NCBI GenBank assembly: GCA_030696455.1
Contig: JAUYSH010000106.1
Span: forward strand, 1 to 49,294
DNA: 49,294 nt
Reading direction: 5' to 3'
Source of the DNA: Elusimicrobiota bacterium
GTDB lineage: Bacteria; Elusimicrobiota; Elusimicrobia; UBA1565; UBA9628
The notes beneath the pieces are model-generated. The model was not told the origin of the DNA and ran no database searches. It saw nothing but the letters and a program-made list of their open reading frames with translations. Shown here one piece after another: positions 2,147 through 25,052 of the stretch (position 1 is the first letter of the stretch; the number at the start of each line of letters is the position of its first letter). A program made the position numbers and the translations under genes.

Positions 2147-2258
2147 TCGATGGAGTCGTTCGTTTCGGCGGCCCGGCCGGCTTGGCGCTCTCGCGCCGTC
2201 AGCCCCGTCGGCTTTGCGGCCCCGGGTTTCCCCGGGTGTGCCCTTCTCGGCCAATCGA
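2147..2258 (-). ncRNA. GEMM-class (cyclic-di-GMP-I) riboswitch candidate
   Basis: Read on the minus strand, the leader contains in order GGGCACACC (2243-2235), a perfect CCCGGG-GAAA-CCCGGG hairpin (2236-2221), GCCGCAAAGCC (2220-2210), a GGGGCUGA segment, a GGCGC-GAGA-GCGCC hairpin, and AAGCCGGCCGGGCCGCC. This matches the order of GEMM elements in the Vibrio Vc2 RNA: GGGCAAACC, GNRA-capped P1b, GACGCAAAGCC, GGCCUAA, second hairpin, GGUAGCGGGGUUACC. An outer helix can form between UCGAUUGG (2258-2251) and CCAUCGA (2153-2147), the latter only 2 bases from the start codon, which suggests control of translation start. The ligand (c-di-GMP versus the 3',3'-cGAMP variant) is not settled by eye. Confidence 0.7.
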
Positions 2259-2319: not shown

Positions 2320-3018
2320 TTACGGCCGTGTTACTCGCCGATCCCCAAGGAAGCAATACCCGAAATTCTTCACGTTAACGATGCGTTCGGAGAGCTCCTT
2401 GGGCAGCGATTTCTTCAGCCGGTTGAGCAGCACGTCGAGCGCGCGGGACAGCCCGGGGTCCTCGACGCCCTCGACCATGCGATACAGGTCCTCCCGCGAG
2501 ACGGGCTGGGGGCCGCGCTCGACGAGGATGTGGAAAAGGGCGAAGGCCTTCGGCGTCAGCTCCGCGACGGGGACGTCCTTCCAGAACACGCGGCGGTCCT
2601 CCCGGTGCAAGGCCAACTCGCCGTGAGCGAGCACGCCCGGCTCCTGCTTGGCGCGCTTGAACAGGGCGCCGAGGGTGGCCAGCAGCTCGCGGGGGCTGTC
2701 GGACTTGCCGACGAAGTAGTCCGCGCCGTTCTCGAGGCCGAGCACCTTCTCGCGTCCGTGCGCGGTGAAGAGCACCACGGGCACCCGGGCCAAAGCGGGG
2801 ATCGCGCGCAGCTTGGCGCACACCTCGCTGCCGTTCTGGTCGGGGAGCACGAAGTCGAGCAGGACGCAGTCGGGCTTGCGCTGGACCGCGGCCTCCAGGG
2901 CCCGCGCTCCGGTGACGGCGTACTCCACCTGCGCGTAGGCGGCGGCCGCGAACCACAGCTTGAGCAGCTCGATCCAGCCCGCGTCGTCCTCGACCACCAG
3001 TATCCGCTCGGAATGCAT
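2320..3018 (-). CDS. OmpR-type DNA-binding response regulator
   Basis: A 232-residue two-domain regulator. The receiver domain (1-118) has acidic pair Asp11/Asp12, phospho-acceptor Asp55 in CVLLDFVLPD, Thr85 and Lys105 (YFVGK). The C-terminal winged helix (about 125-228) has the OmpR signature LTPKAFALFHILVE and a closing VNVKNFGYCF hairpin. No cognate histidine kinase is adjacent, so it is an orphan here. The start at 3018 is chosen because the receiver begins there and because TTGACG-17-TATACT ends 7 bases before this ATG; no Shine-Dalgarno sequence is present, so the message is probably leaderless. Its upstream region contains the long inverted repeat at 3068-3132. Confidence 0.92.
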   Translation of the reverse strand: MHSERILVVEDDAGWIELLKLWFAAAAYAQVEYAVTGARALEAAVQRKPDCVLLDFVLPDQNGSEVCAKLRAIPALARVPVVLFTAHGREKVLGLENGADYFVGKSDSPRELLATLGALFKRAKQEPGVLAHGELALHREDRRVFWKDVPVAELTPKAFALFHILVERGPQPVSREDLYRMVEGVEDPGLSRALDVLLNRLKKSLPKELSERIVNVKNFGYCFLGDRRVTRP

Positions 3019-3025
3019 CTTCAGG

Positions 3026-3054
3026 AGTATAAAGGGGGGGCGCCCCGCCGTCAA
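3026..3054 (-). promoter_or_regulatory. Leaderless promoter of the response regulator
   Basis: On the minus strand TTGACG (3054-3049), 17-base spacer, TATACT (3031-3026), then 7 bases to the ATG at 3018. Transcription should begin at or within a base or two of the start codon. Confidence 0.75.
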
Positions 3055-3067
3055 TGGCGCCGAATAT

Positions 3068-3132
3068 GGTGTCAGGCATATCGTTCTTTGCATAACTCGG
3101 CGAGTTGTGCAAAGAACGATATGCCTGACACC
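3068..3132. repeat. Long inverted repeat, copy 1
   Basis: A 25-bp arm beginning GGTGTCAGGCATATCG (3068-3092) is repeated perfectly inverted at 3108-3132. The centre pairs further (AACTC 3094-3098 with GAGTT 3102-3106, one T-G opposition between), giving about 31 pairs round a 3-base loop. It lies between two divergent promoters. A second element with the same outer sequence type (TGGTGYCAGGC...TTGCRTAACT) is at 22954-23034. The ends GGTGYCAGGC resemble REP-type repeats mobilised by IS200-like REP transposases. No transposase is in the window. Confidence 0.9.
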
Positions 3133-3144
3133 GGCCTGGGGGTC

Positions 3145-3173
3145 TTGACGGATCTTATTTTTCGTTGTATAGT
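3145..3173 (+). promoter_or_regulatory. Promoter of the NmrA/GbsR operon
   Basis: TTGACG (3145-3150), a 17-base spacer and TATAGT (3168-3173). Transcription would start near 3180, inside the palindrome at 3172-3197, so binding there should block initiation. The gene has an AAGGAG ribosome binding site, unlike the leaderless genes around it. Confidence 0.8.
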
Positions 3174-3215: not shown

Positions 3216-4157
3216 ATGAACGCGCCGCTCGACGTCGTCACCGGGGCTTTCAGCTACTCCGGAGGGTACGTGGCCGAGCGCCTGCTCGCGGCGGGGCGCC
3301 GGGTCGCCACCTTGACCGGCCATCCCGGCCGTCCGTCCCCGCTCCAAGGGCGGGTCGCGGCCCATCCGCTCGACTTCGCCCGTCCCGACCGGCTGGCCGA
3401 GTCCCTGCGGGGCGTCGATACGCTGTACAACAACTATTGGGTCCGCTTCGCGCACGGCGGGATGACGCACGAGCGGGCGGTCCGCAACAGCGAGATCCTC
3501 TTTCAGGCGGCCGCGAAGGCCGGGGTGCGGCGCATCGTCCATGTCAGCATCGCCAACGCGGACCCGGGCTCCGACCTCCCTTACTACCGGGGAAAGGGCT
3601 TGGTCGAGCAGGCGTTGAAGGCGGCCGGCCCTTCCTATGCGATCCTGGGCCCCACCGTCCTGTTCGGCGGCTACGACGTGCTCATCAACAACATCGCCTG
3701 GATGCTCCGCCGCTTCCCGGCGTTCGCGATCATCGGCGACGGACGCTACCCGATCCAGCCCATCGCCGTGGAGGACCTGGCCGACCTCGCGGTCGCGGCC
3801 GGAGCCGGCGAAGGGAACACCTCCGCGGACGCGGTCGGCCCCGAGGTCTTCGCTTACGAGGACCTCGTCCGGCTCCTGGCCGAGAGGATCGGACGACGAC
3901 CGTGGTTCTTCAAGGTCGGACCGCGGGCGGGGCTGGCGCTGGCGGCGGGGCTTGGGCTTCTGACCGGCGACGTCGTGCTCACGCAAGAGGAGGTCGACGG
4001 GCTCACCCGGGGCCTTCTGAAGTCGAAGCGGCCGGCGACCGGGCGGCGCGCGTTCAAGGCCTGGCTCGCCGCGGAGGGCGGGGACCTCGGCCGCGACTAC
4101 CACAACGAGCTGAAAAGGCATTTCGAAGGGGGGGAAACCGAATGGGAGCCGAGCTGA
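3216..4157 (+). CDS. NmrA-like NAD(P)-binding epimerase/reductase
   Basis: A 313-residue protein of the atypical short-chain dehydrogenase group (NmrA / complex I NDUFA9-like). The N-terminal Rossmann motif is TGAFSYSGGYV (residues 9-19), a variant of TGxxGxxG; an IVHVSIANAD strand and a YRGKGLVEQAL helix (about 128-138) carry the Tyr and Lys seen in extended family members. The C-terminal part (PIQPIAVEDLADLAV, then FKAWL) fits substrate-domain elements of NDUFA9-type proteins. It has a clear ribosome binding site (AAGGAG) and overlaps the regulator gene by 16 bases. Substrate is unknown; co-regulation with the GbsR-like gene suggests a stress- or ligand-induced function. Confidence 0.82.
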   Translation: MNAPLDVVTGAFSYSGGYVAERLLAAGRRVATLTGHPGRPSPLQGRVAAHPLDFARPDRLAESLRGVDTLYNNYWVRFAHGGMTHERAVRNSEILFQAAAKAGVRRIVHVSIANADPGSDLPYYRGKGLVEQALKAAGPSYAILGPTVLFGGYDVLINNIAWMLRRFPAFAIIGDGRYPIQPIAVEDLADLAVAAGAGEGNTSADAVGPEVFAYEDLVRLLAERIGRRPWFFKVGPRAGLALAAGLGLLTGDVVLTQEEVDGLTRGLLKSKRPATGRRAFKAWLAAEGGDLGRDYHNELKRHFEGGETEWEPS

Positions 4158-21757: not shown

Positions 21758-21792
21758 AAAGAGCTGAGCCAATGATAGAATATCCGCCGCCC
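21758..21792. promoter_or_regulatory. Divergent overlapping promoters
   Basis: Minus-strand TATCAT (21777-21772) faces the dehydrogenase gene, while plus-strand TAGAAT (21776-21781) or TATCCG (21781-21786) faces the TPR gene. The two -10 elements overlap, so RNA polymerase could serve only one direction at a time. Confidence 0.45.
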
Positions 21793-22950
21793 GTGCGACA
21801 ATTGCTCATTCTGCTGTTCCTGGCCGCGCCCGCCGCCGCCCGCAAAACCTCGGTCACCCCGGAGATGGACAAGCTCCTGATGGCGGGCGTGGACGACATC
21901 TACATGATGCGCTTCGCGCAGGCCGAGGCGGACATGGCCCAGGCGATCGCCCTCGACCCGACCTACCCGCACGCCTACTTCGGCCGCGCGGCGATCGACC
22001 TCATCACCTTCATCTACGGCGAGAAGCAGGGCGACCCGGCCCTGCTGAAGTCCTTCGAGGCCAAGGCGCTCGAGAGCATCGAGATGGCGGAGAGATATCT
22101 GAAGGCTCACCCGAACGACCCCGACGCCCTGTTCATCCTGGGCGCGTCGCACGGGATGTTCGGCCGCCTGGCGATCGTGCAGCGCCGGTGGCTCCAGGCC
22201 TTCGGCCACGGCCGCGCGTCGATGAAGTTCGTGCGCCGCGCCGTGAAGCTCGAGCCGGAGCTCTACGACGCGGTCCTCGGCCTGGGCATGTTCGACTATT
22301 ACGTCGCGACCATCCCCAAGTTCGCGGGCTGGCTGGCGAAGATCGTCCTCGGCGGCGACCGCGAGCGGGGCCTCCGGCAGATCAAGCACGCGGCCGAGAA
22401 GGGCCGCTACGCCAAGGTCACCGCCCAGATGATCCTCGTCGAGATCTATCTCGAGGACCCGTTCGGCGCCTACAACCCCTATGAGGGCCTGCGCCTGATG
22501 CGCGAGGTCCACGCGCAATATCCCGGCAGCGCGATGCTCGACACCGCTTACATCTCCGCGCTGTACGAGTCCAAGGAGCTGGCCGAGGCTCTCCGAGAGG
22601 CGCGCGAGTACCAGGCCCGCGTGAAGTCCGGCCGGTACCCGGCGATGAACCTGGCCGGGAGCCACGCGTTGCTGGGCACCTTGCTGTGGGCCTCCGGCGA
22701 CAAGGACGGGGCGCTCGCCGAGTTCGTCGCCGGCGCCGAGGCGCGCGGCGTGCGCACGAAGTGGATGGTCTGGAGCCGCGTGCGCGCGGGCCAGCTGCTC
22801 GACGCGCTGGGCCGCCGCGCCGAGGCGCTCGACGCCTACCACGAAGCCTACAAGGAGAAGGACGACTGGGGCTTCCGCGCCCTGATCAAGCCCTGCCTCA
22901 AGGTGCCCTGCGTCGGCGAGCACTACCCCGGCCACTTCTCCCCAAACTAA
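21793..22950 (+). CDS. Exported TPR-repeat protein
   Basis: A 385-residue protein. GTG at 21793 is preferred: it gives a clean signal peptide (VRQLLILLFLAAPAAA) and lies 6 bases after TATCCG and 11 after TAGAAT. An ATG at 21772 would add seven residues including Glu and three prolines and would overlap the -10. The mature part is helical with tetratricopeptide-like repeats, for example FAQAEADMAQAIALDPTYPHAYFGRA, RAVKLEPELYDAVLGLGMFDYY and RAGQLLDALGRRAEALDAYHEAY. Two cysteines near the end (KPCLKVPC) could pair. Likely a periplasmic scaffold; partners unknown. Followed by the long inverted repeat. Confidence 0.82.
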   Translation: MRQLLILLFLAAPAAARKTSVTPEMDKLLMAGVDDIYMMRFAQAEADMAQAIALDPTYPHAYFGRAAIDLITFIYGEKQGDPALLKSFEAKALESIEMAERYLKAHPNDPDALFILGASHGMFGRLAIVQRRWLQAFGHGRASMKFVRRAVKLEPELYDAVLGLGMFDYYVATIPKFAGWLAKIVLGGDRERGLRQIKHAAEKGRYAKVTAQMILVEIYLEDPFGAYNPYEGLRLMREVHAQYPGSAMLDTAYISALYESKELAEALREAREYQARVKSGRYPAMNLAGSHALLGTLLWASGDKDGALAEFVAGAEARGVRTKWMVWSRVRAGQLLDALGRRAEALDAYHEAYKEKDDWGFRALIKPCLKVPCVGEHYPGHFSPN

Positions 22951-22953
22951 AGC

Positions 22954-23034
22954 TGGTGCCAGGCCTACCGGTATTTGCGTAACTTCGCTTCGACTGGTTC
23001 GTGAGTTACGCAAATACCGGTAGGCCTGGCACCA
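22954..23034. repeat. Long inverted repeat, copy 2
   Basis: A 31-bp arm (22954-22984, beginning TGGTGCCAGGCCTACCGG) is repeated perfectly inverted at 23004-23034 around a 19-base loop. It begins 3 bases after the TPR stop and ends 17 bases before the speA -10. The arms follow the same pattern as the element at 3068-3132, and both copies have GGCGCC 4-6 bases outside one arm (3056-3061 and 23039-23044). It can also act as a terminator for the TPR gene. Confidence 0.92.
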
Positions 23035-23063: not shown

Positions 23064-25052
23064 ATGCCCCCGCCGAAGACCTGGAACATCGACGCCGCCG
23101 AATCCCTTTACAACCTCGAAGGCTGGGGCCTGAACTATTTCGGCATCAACGCCAAGGGCAACGTCACGCTTCAGCCCAAGAAGGAGCCCGAGGGGGCCAT
23201 CGACATCCTCGACGTCGTCGACGACGTCGCCTCGCGCGGGATCAAGATGCCCGTGCTCATCCGCTTCCAGGACATCCTGCGCCGCCGCGTGGCCGTCATC
23301 AACGAGGCCTTCGCCGAGGCGATCAAGGAGCACGGCTACGGCGCGCGGTTCTTCGGCGTGTACCCGATCAAGGTCAACCAGTTCCGCGAGGTCGTCGAGG
23401 AGATCAGCGACGCCGGCCGCGCCTGGCAGTACGGCCTGGAGGCGGGATCGAAGGGCGAGCTGCTCGCCGTCCTCGCCATGAACTCCGGCGACTCCCTCAC
23501 CATCGTCAACGGCTACAAGGACGAGTCGATGATGCGTCTGGCGATGATCGGCCTCAAGCTCGGCAAGAAGGTCATCGTCGTCGTCGAGAAGCTCTCCGAG
23601 CTGCGCCTGCTGCTCGACGCCGCCAAGGACGCGGGCGTGCGGCCGCTGATCGGCCTCCGCGTGAAGCTCCAGACCACGGGCGTGGGGAAATGGCGCTCGT
23701 CCTCCGGCCATTTTGCCAAGTTCGGCTTGACGACGCCCGAGATCTTGGCGGCGGTCGAGACCCTGAAAGCCGAGGGCCTGTCCGACTGCCTCAAGCTCGT
23801 GCACTTCCACATCGGCTCGCAGATCTGCGACATCCGCGTGATCAAGGACGCGGTCAAGGAAGGCGCGCGCTACTACGCGAAGCTGCGCAAGATGGGCCTC
23901 GGCGTCGAGTATCTCGACTGCGGCGGCGGCCTCGGCGTCGACTACGACGGCACGCACACCGCCGTCGACAGCTCGATGAACTACAACTTGCGCGAGTACG
24001 TCGCCGACGTCGTGTACTCGGTTCAGGAGGTCTGCAAGCAGGAGAAGGTCCCCGAGCCCAACCTGATCACCGAGTCCGGCCGGTCCATGGTCGCTCACCA
24101 CGCGCTGTTGGTGGTCAACGTCTTCGGCTCCATCGAGACCGGGGCGACCCCCATCGAGTTCCGGGAGACGCCCGATGAGCATCAGGTCGTGCGCGAGCTG
24201 CGCGACGCGATCAAGTCGCTCAACCCCAAGACCATCGCCGAGAGCTTTCACGACGGTCAGCAGCATCTCGAGGAGTCGTTCACCCTCTTCAAGCTCGGCT
24301 ATCTCGGCCTCGAGGACAAGGCCAAGGTCGAGCACCTGTACTGGAAGCTCTGCATCGAGATCGGCAAGCTGCTCCCGAAGGCGAAGTTCGTCTCCGAGGA
24401 CCTGCTCGAGATGCAGAAGGCGCTCAACGACCAGTACCTCTGCAACTTCTCGCTGTTCCAGTCCCTGCCCGACTCCTGGGCGATCGGCCAGCTGTTCCCG
24501 ATCATGCCCTTGCACCGGCTCAACGAGGAGCCCACGCGCCGCGCGAGCCTCGTCGACATCACCTGCGACTCCGACGGAAAGATCACCAACTTCGCCTGCC
24601 ACCGCAGCGCCGGCGGCACCTTGCCGGTCCACACGCTCGACGGCAAGCCCTACTACCTGGGCTTCTTCCTCATGGGCGCCTACCAGGCCACGATGGGCGA
24701 CATCCACAACCTCTTCGGGCGCGTCAACGAGGTCCACGTGTTCCAGGACTCCGCCGAGGAGAAGGGCTACTACATCGAGGAGACGATCCAGGGCCAGACG
24801 GTCCGCGACGTCCTCACCGGGATCCAATACTCCGACTTCGAGCTCGTGCGCATGATCAAGGAGGCCGCGGACGCGCAGATCAAGACCGGGGGCCTCAAGC
24901 CCCGCGAGGCGGCCGACCTCGTCGACCGCTACGAGGCGGTGCTGAGCGAGTACACCTACGTCGACCACCTCCCGACGGCCGACGAGAACAAGGTGCTGTC
25001 CCGGGAGCGCGCCAACGGCGGCGCCAAGCCCGCCGTGATCGTCGTTCCCTGA
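23064..25052 (+). CDS. speA: Biosynthetic arginine decarboxylase
   Basis: A 662-residue PLP enzyme of fold type III that makes agmatine, the entry to putrescine and spermidine in this pathway. It has Lys103 in GVYPIKVNQ for the PLP Schiff base, the YGLEAGSKGELL strand, SSGHFAKFGLT, LVHFHIGSQ, DCGGGLGVDYDG, ITESGRSMVAHHAL, and the C-terminal LVDITCDSDGKI with the active-site Cys. Length and motifs match the SpeA family of bacteria and plants, not the acid-inducible AdiA. Agmatine-utilising genes are not in the window. A strong leaderless promoter lies directly before it. Confidence 0.96.
   Translation: MPPPKTWNIDAAESLYNLEGWGLNYFGINAKGNVTLQPKKEPEGAIDILDVVDDVASRGIKMPVLIRFQDILRRRVAVINEAFAEAIKEHGYGARFFGVYPIKVNQFREVVEEISDAGRAWQYGLEAGSKGELLAVLAMNSGDSLTIVNGYKDESMMRLAMIGLKLGKKVIVVVEKLSELRLLLDAAKDAGVRPLIGLRVKLQTTGVGKWRSSSGHFAKFGLTTPEILAAVETLKAEGLSDCLKLVHFHIGSQICDIRVIKDAVKEGARYYAKLRKMGLGVEYLDCGGGLGVDYDGTHTAVDSSMNYNLREYVADVVYSVQEVCKQEKVPEPNLITESGRSMVAHHALLVVNVFGSIETGATPIEFRETPDEHQVVRELRDAIKSLNPKTIAESFHDGQQHLEESFTLFKLGYLGLEDKAKVEHLYWKLCIEIGKLLPKAKFVSEDLLEMQKALNDQYLCNFSLFQSLPDSWAIGQLFPIMPLHRLNEEPTRRASLVDITCDSDGKITNFACHRSAGGTLPVHTLDGKPYYLGFFLMGAYQATMGDIHNLFGRVNEVHVFQDSAEEKGYYIEETIQGQTVRDVLTGIQYSDFELVRMIKEAADAQIKTGGLKPREAADLVDRYEAVLSEYTYVDHLPTADENKVLSRERANGGAKPAVIVVP

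Follow-up and report, generated by a model that had tools for sequence, protein, structure and literature searches.

RAYT-linked palindromes in an Elusimicrobiota genome: a hairpin between divergent promoters and position-conserving changes of hairpin family among sister species

Introduction

Palindromes linked to genes for REP-associated tyrosine transposases (RAYTs) are among the commonest repeats in bacteria, which raises the question of their mode of spread and their persistence. It is posed here by a long hairpin (copy 1) lying between two divergent genes in a contig of an Elusimicrobiota bacterium, and by a second palindrome (copy 2) in the same window, i.e., the whole 49,294-nucleotide stretch that was analyzed. 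A preliminary description, made from the letters alone, took the differences between the two copies as compensatory changes that keep the stem paired and read them as strong evidence “for selection on structure or for a mobile, REP-like origin.” Which of these is it, and what becomes of such a hairpin at the same place in related species?

Results

Copy 1 is an inverted repeat (3068-3099 and 3101-3132) with arms that are 97% complementary. Folded as single-stranded DNA, its 65 bases form a stem of 31 pairs, 3068-3098 against 3102-3132, closed by a 3-nt loop, at -35.6 kcal/mol (z of about -13; shuffles never equaled the native sequence): pairs 1-25 are perfectly Watson-Crick, followed by a single T.G wobble and then further pairs. 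Folding and repeat detection both reproduced the stem as first described (a perfect 25-bp arm, about 31 pairs and a 3-base loop), and its location between the response-regulator and NmrA promoters was borne out as well, since sigma-70-like promoters were found on both sides (3 found vs. 0.2 expected), with the hairpin placed symmetrically between the -35 boxes of the two genes (Table 1). Its insertion between them was probably close to neutral for both promoters. Copy 1 was not called as an intrinsic terminator and has no T-tract adjacent to the stem, and the Rfam search gave 0 matches at copy 1 and at copy 2. A c-di-GMP-I riboswitch aptamer was also recognized near the response-regulator gene.

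Table 1. Features around the two palindromes, in positions of the window
Feature	Position	Strand	Basis or remark
c-di-GMP-I riboswitch aptamer	2164-2252	-	44 bits vs. Rfam gathering threshold of 35
Response regulator gene (Response_reg + Trans_reg_C)	2320-3018	-	Domain matches
Sigma-70-like promoter of the response-regulator gene	3026-3054	-	TTGACG-17-TATACT; -35 box (3049-3054) 13 nt from hairpin
Copy 1, a family-A palindrome with T + GGTGTCAGGC as its foot; stem of 31 bp, loop of 3 nt	3067-3132		Repeat detection, folding, genome pattern search
Left arm of copy 1, GGTGTCAGGC-ATATCGTTCTTTGCATAACTC	3068-3098	+	Comparison with the end of the RAYT on contig C86 and with dispersed family-A copies
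Right arm of copy 1, reverse complement of the left arm with one T.G wobble	3102-3132	-	Folding
Sigma-70-like promoter of the NmrA-like gene	3145-3173	+	TTGACG-17-TATAGT; -35 box (3145-3150) 12 nt from hairpin
NAD(P)-binding/NmrA-like protein gene	3216-4157	+	Domain matches
TPR-repeat protein gene	21772-22950	+	Domain matches; stop 3 nt before copy 2
Copy 2, a family-B palindrome with perfect 31-nt arms	22954-23034		Repeat detection, folding, genome pattern search
Arginine decarboxylase gene	23064-25052	+	Domain matches; start about 30 nt past copy 2

Over the whole genome (4.01 Mb in 147 contigs), the pattern TGGTGYCAGGC-N15-60-GCCTGRCACC occurs 19 times in forward and 20 times in reverse orientation, vs. 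0 occurrences in the reversed control, and the foot TGGTGYCAGGC alone occurs 64 times vs. 4. At least 27 full palindromes, together with solo arms, were collected. The foot is constant across them, and the inner ~18 nt sort the copies into six families: A (ATRTCGTTCTTTGCATAACT), to which copy 1 belongs; B (CTACCGGTATTTGCGTAACT), to which copy 2 belongs; C (CTAACGGTAATGACAGTATT); D (CTCCCATTATCCCATTAC); E (CTTCAAATTCGTTAAATT); and F (ATTCCACTATTTTCACTTT). Copies 1 and 2 have the foot GGTGYCAGGC and the innermost TTTGCRTAACT in common and differ in the middle, in line with the preliminary description. The finding that it named as a refutation, only these two copies in the genome, clearly does not apply. 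Copies do sit at the ends of genes, where it had suggested looking at operon ends: about 24 of 32 sites lie no more than 12 nt downstream of a stop codon, copy 1, between its divergent promoters, being the unusual one. Folded alone, single arms of families A, B and D did no better than shuffles and those of family C did so weakly (z = -2.2). Canonical GTAG REP/BIME elements were rejected as a match, given that the foot has no GT[AG]G tetranucleotide and that the arms mostly do not form hairpins by themselves.

The arms of copies 1 and 2 differ because the copies belong to two families, and compensatory change between them gains no support; within families, nearly every arm mutation affects one side only. 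When the 27 palindromes found here were compared with their family consensus (a count that leaves out three copies of divergent sub-families), the deviations were one-sided, with 0 symmetric. Arm positions are paired in 95% of cases vs. 67% after shuffling of right arms among copies, a difference that reflects family identity, not selection. The one-sided mutations look like unselected decay after insertion, and compensatory evolution in place was rejected on their account. Of the two origins first offered, then, the mobile, REP-like one is upheld by the copies and by the RAYT arms described below, and the one-sided mutations argue against maintenance of the stem in place.

The IS200-like REP transposase gene that had been proposed as a partner is present five times: five Y1_Tnp genes were found in the genome, and all five are flanked by inverted arms, one family per gene (A for the gene on contig C86, locus L057; D and F for those on contig C88, at 75k and 105k, respectively; E for C96; C for C128). 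No RAYT with family-B ends was found in this assembly or among the genus RAYT loci examined. Some 60-85 nt separate the beginning of the left arm from the start codon; the end of the right arm is no more than about 20 nt from the stop codon, and in some of the proteins the final residues are encoded by the right arm. The inner part of the left arm of copy 1 is one base off (ATATCG/ATGTCG) from the left end of the C86 RAYT and is matched by many dispersed family-A copies. The dispersed palindromes are RAYT terminal inverted repeats without the gene, and the genome carries several such pairs of gene and arms, which differ from one another in inner arm sequence and in the set of dispersed palindromes that goes with each. 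At two loci (L057 and L059), the right terminal arm was seen to code for C-terminal residues (e.g., ...YAKYDMPDTIF), so that changes in the arm also alter the end of the RAYT protein.

All five RAYT proteins score above the cut-off for PF01797 and reach 63-79 bits for NF047646 (REP_Tyr_transpos), just under its cut-off of 80; they carry NHFH (the HUH motif) and YIHMNP, YIHLNP, YIQMNP or YIHENP (the Y motif). An AlphaFold model (pLDDT 84.6) has an HUH core and a separate, confidently modeled C-terminal helical domain, with helices within residues 189-259, and its best PDB match is 4er8, TnpA_REP bound to a REP hairpin (E 1.8e-7). The signal for a C-terminal helix-turn-helix consisted of a sub-threshold HTH_23 match in one protein only and a weak match to the ComA HTH.

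The genus as a whole yielded 40 RAYT proteins, 29 of which were assigned foot-plus-inner inverted repeats; the feet are of the types GGTGTCAGGC, GGTGCCAGGC, GGTGCCTGGC, GGGGTCAGACC and GGGGTCAGGC, and the inner part is variable. Similar RAYTs bear similar inner arms, with modest correlations: the partial rank correlation of inner-arm similarity was 0.28 with the protein tail given the core and 0.27 with the core given the tail (permutation p = 0.001 each), and foot similarity correlated with the core given the tail (0.31, p = 0.001) and at 0.09 with the tail given the core (p = 0.16). A division of labor in which the core reads the foot and the C-terminal domain reads the inner stem would fit these values only weakly, because inner arms correlate with the core as much as with the tail. 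Family content follows RAYT content: in the sister species G005, for example, none of the RAYTs found has ends of family A or C, and the palindromes listed for that genome are not of A or C. The RAYT of locus L060 occupies the same locus in many species, yet both of its arms change together between species. At L008:1501-1581, where this genome has a family-C palindrome, another member of the genus (G013, locus L084) has an entire RAYT gene, the arms of which are of another type (GGTGTCAGACCTCCCACATTCCC).

The flanks of the 27 sites were compared with those in up to four sister species (draft assemblies; flank identity 76-95%), giving 58 comparisons: 22 empty sites, 11 with a hairpin of the same family, 11 with one of a different family (judged by how alike the arms are, families A, B and F having parts of their inner arms in common), 6 with some other hairpin (two of these, L016 in G005 and L036 in G016, are family-B-like and were missed by the foot pattern) and 8 filled without a full hairpin. 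The clean empty orthologous sites (22/58) show that the palindromes were inserted. Same-family pairs (among them L029, a call set by hand as a deletion in one of the arms here reduces its score) frequently have homologous loops (L010, L014 and L029), as expected under vertical descent. In the switched pairs the position is retained, the arms differ and the loop is usually different too. Relative to this genome, the copy 1 site goes from A to F-like in G005 (edge offsets 0/-3) and is F-like in two sister species in all; the copy 2 site goes from B to F-like in G005 (-1/0), where both window copies are consequently F-like, and to a B variant in G006 (0/0); L016 from C to B-like in G005 (-1/0) and G006 (0/0); L023 from B to F-like (-1/-1); L028 from A-like to a CTACCGG type in G006 (-1/-2); and L053 from A to F-like (+6/-2). 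Both edges agree within 3 nt at copies 1 and 2, L016, L023 and L028. The inner arm of a typical switched copy has a similarity of 0.47-0.65 to its orthologue vs. 0.8-1.0 to copies of its own genome. Family has changed, with position conserved, at many orthologous sites.

Two sites retain something of their history. At L012, GAGGGGCGGCTGCCTCTAGCCG is present as a single copy without an insert in G006, and the 3' end of the upstream gene is duplicated in this genome (copies GGAGGCTGCCTCTAG and GGCGGCTGCCTCGAG, 16 of 20 positions identical), in G005 and in G017; between the duplicates lie a family-C palindrome here, an unrelated hairpin-like repeat in G005 and a GGGGTCAGACC palindrome in G017, and in G016 (with a contig matched on the downstream side only) there is a GGTGCCTGGC palindrome. 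A single insertion followed by replacement would explain this arrangement best. At L028, this genome and G006 have flanking bases in common that G005 and G017, where the site is empty, do not have, and the families differ. There are just two clear cases of long imperfect direct repeats, L012 (16 of 20 bp identical) and L054 (22 of 26 bp); a consistent duplication was not seen at the other empty-site junctions, and a long target-site duplication is therefore not claimed as a general rule. In G006 and G016, some arms are nested or arranged in tandem (e.g., G006:C135 and the orthologues of L039 and L048), which suggests that new hairpins may land inside old ones, which would be an alternative route to replacement.

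Discussion

Copy 1 is very probably a non-autonomous, RAYT-linked mobile palindrome, REPIN- or MITE-like and of the TIRYT/TIRtron kind; that a RAYT mobilizes it is suggested by the identity of the arms. The cognate RAYT would recognize the foot and the inner stem on single-stranded DNA (on the lagging strand or extruded), cut at the foot and then copy or move the hairpin. Reading of the foot would fall to the conserved catalytic core, and the C-terminal helical domain, which is variable, would help to read the inner stem. Once occupied, a site may serve as a landing pad, where a hairpin of the currently active family takes the place of the resident one by exchange or by overwriting it, whether through a preference for occupied sites or by direct exchange; copy 1, which is of family A here but F-like in two sister species, would be one such case. 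In its most specific form, that RAYTs swap whole hairpins, foot included, as single strands at occupied sites (position inherited, sequence replaced), the proposal is a tentative one, and we lean somewhat against it.

A stem kept by selection as a conserved regulatory or terminator structure, with compensatory mutations arising in place, could draw on the position of most palindromes just past stop codons, on arms that stay paired across families (95% vs. 67%), on the copy 1 site, where G005 and G016 have the same loop and symmetric differences in both arms, and on L026, where the loop is retained and there are two symmetric changes. We regard it as improbable, however, in view of the one-sided mutations within families, the 22 empty orthologous comparisons, inner arms that are closer to copies of their own genome than to orthologues, and, for copy 1, the missing T-tract and terminator call. 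Less credible still are MITEs of an unrelated DDE transposase that are associated with RAYTs by chance: the imperfect direct repeats of 20-26 bp at two sites would be unexpected for insertion of the IS200/IS605 type, but matching arms lie at similar distances around all five RAYTs of the genome and around most of those of the genus.

Two further readings accept mobility and explain the change of family otherwise. Different RAYTs might have inserted independently at the same hot spots, no resident being replaced, and L016, L037 and L052 (empty in one sister species and variously filled in others) and the unrelated hairpins at some sites (L021) would agree with this; we nevertheless think it rather unlikely, as both edges fall within 3 nt at several switched sites, one duplicated junction is common to three species with different contents at L012, the flanking bases that this genome and G006 have in common at L028 are absent from empty sites although the families differ, and a strict target sequence was not seen. 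Ordinary gene conversion among dispersed copies would account for the concerted pattern, in which copies resemble others of the same genome, and for L026, with its loop retained and both arms changed. Between families, however, sequence identity is limited to the foot of ~11 nt plus a few bases of the inner arm, which is very short for homologous recombination; their flanks are unrelated, and at most switched sites the loop is changed also, so that conversion seems to us an unlikely source of the switches. Exchange of hairpins by RAYTs at occupied sites is a concrete prediction from kept positions with changed families and, if true, could explain how positions persist over the divergence of species without selection on sequence. 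Several RAYT/arm pairs per genome, in which the foot is constant and the inner stem varies with the partner, would also offer a natural specificity code.

Among known systems, this one fits the TIRYT/subclass 2.1 class, with REPIN-like two-arm copies, and not the canonical GTAG REPs. TIRYTs are described as RAYT-like genes between long terminal inverted repeats (TIRs) that carry GGGGWSAS in the majority of cases, with TIR families of moderate size that are dispersed in some species (Di Nocera et al., 2013; PMC3733652), and most of them fall in TnpA_Y1 subclass 2.1, with a C-terminal helix-turn-helix and, in the available part of that account, REP-like repeats not found nearby (Quentin et al., 2018; PMC6006769). 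The system here likewise has an IS200-like tyrosine transposase with a C-terminal extension, its Y1 genes lying between long terminal inverted repeats in place of GTAG REPs and carrying HUH and Y motifs of the types expected (NH[YF]H or NHVH for the former, YIHLNP-like for the latter). Its GGTGTCAG agrees with GGGGWSAS at 7 of 8 bases (one base differs), and GGGGTCAG, which fits that motif, occurs exactly at four sister-species RAYT loci (L101, L105, L326 and L328). It differs in that whole two-arm palindromes are dispersed, in several families per genome that are each matched to a RAYT, and in the in-place switching of family, which is absent from the available portion of those descriptions. 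The fold of the transposase is the HUH Y1 fold of IS200/IS605, whereas the long TIRs, the C-terminal helical domain and the imperfect long flanking duplications at two sites are points of difference.

Like REPINs (Bertels and Rainey, 2011; PMC3116915), to the extent that the consulted part of that work describes them, the palindromes are inverted doublets with a short loop that fold into hairpins, are dispersed outside genes and have a specific, cognate RAYT; unlike those of REPINs, their arms are not REP sequences and have no GTAG tag, three of the four arms tested form no hairpin of their own, and the stems are long and nearly perfect. “Orthoswitch” refers to orthologous RAYT genes whose flanking repeats belong to one class in one strain and to another class in a related strain (Nunvar et al., 2013; PMC3686654), which resembles the L060 locus, where arms differ across species; in the part of that report available, however, the old dispersed copies remain and decay, whereas here the dispersed sites carry another family in sister species. 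In the accessible parts of the open literature searched, there is no description of dispersed copies that change family and keep their position, and no relevant paper was among the matches listed for the exact foot string. In-place switching of dispersed copies looks new, and its mechanism is one that we infer.

Beyond the sister species, an Elusimicrobia metagenome-assembled genome (L205, NC_groundwater_611) has a palindrome identical to one in G006, which points to the phylum Elusimicrobiota for the genome studied here, and palindromes with the same foot are also found in Bacillota, Omnitrophota, Planctomycetota, Acidobacteriota and others; a Fictibacillus contig has a Y1 gene with a copy of the motif at each end.

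Some minor observations may be added. Unrelated repeat-type hairpins (AACCACTAAGACACCAAGACAC-like) occur in G005 (L284 and L311) and G016 (L308) at sites that have RAYT palindromes here, which suggests that gene ends bearing hairpins attract several kinds of palindromic element. Numerous phyla have palindromes of the TGGTGYCAGGCACC type (L108-L222), and Bacillota are frequent among the matches listed. On contig C59, a gene seems to begin within a solo family-A arm (L040:2501-2540) that would encode a signal-peptide-like N-terminus (MVSGISFFALLLLG...), and its orthologues in G006 and G016 have different arm types at the same place.
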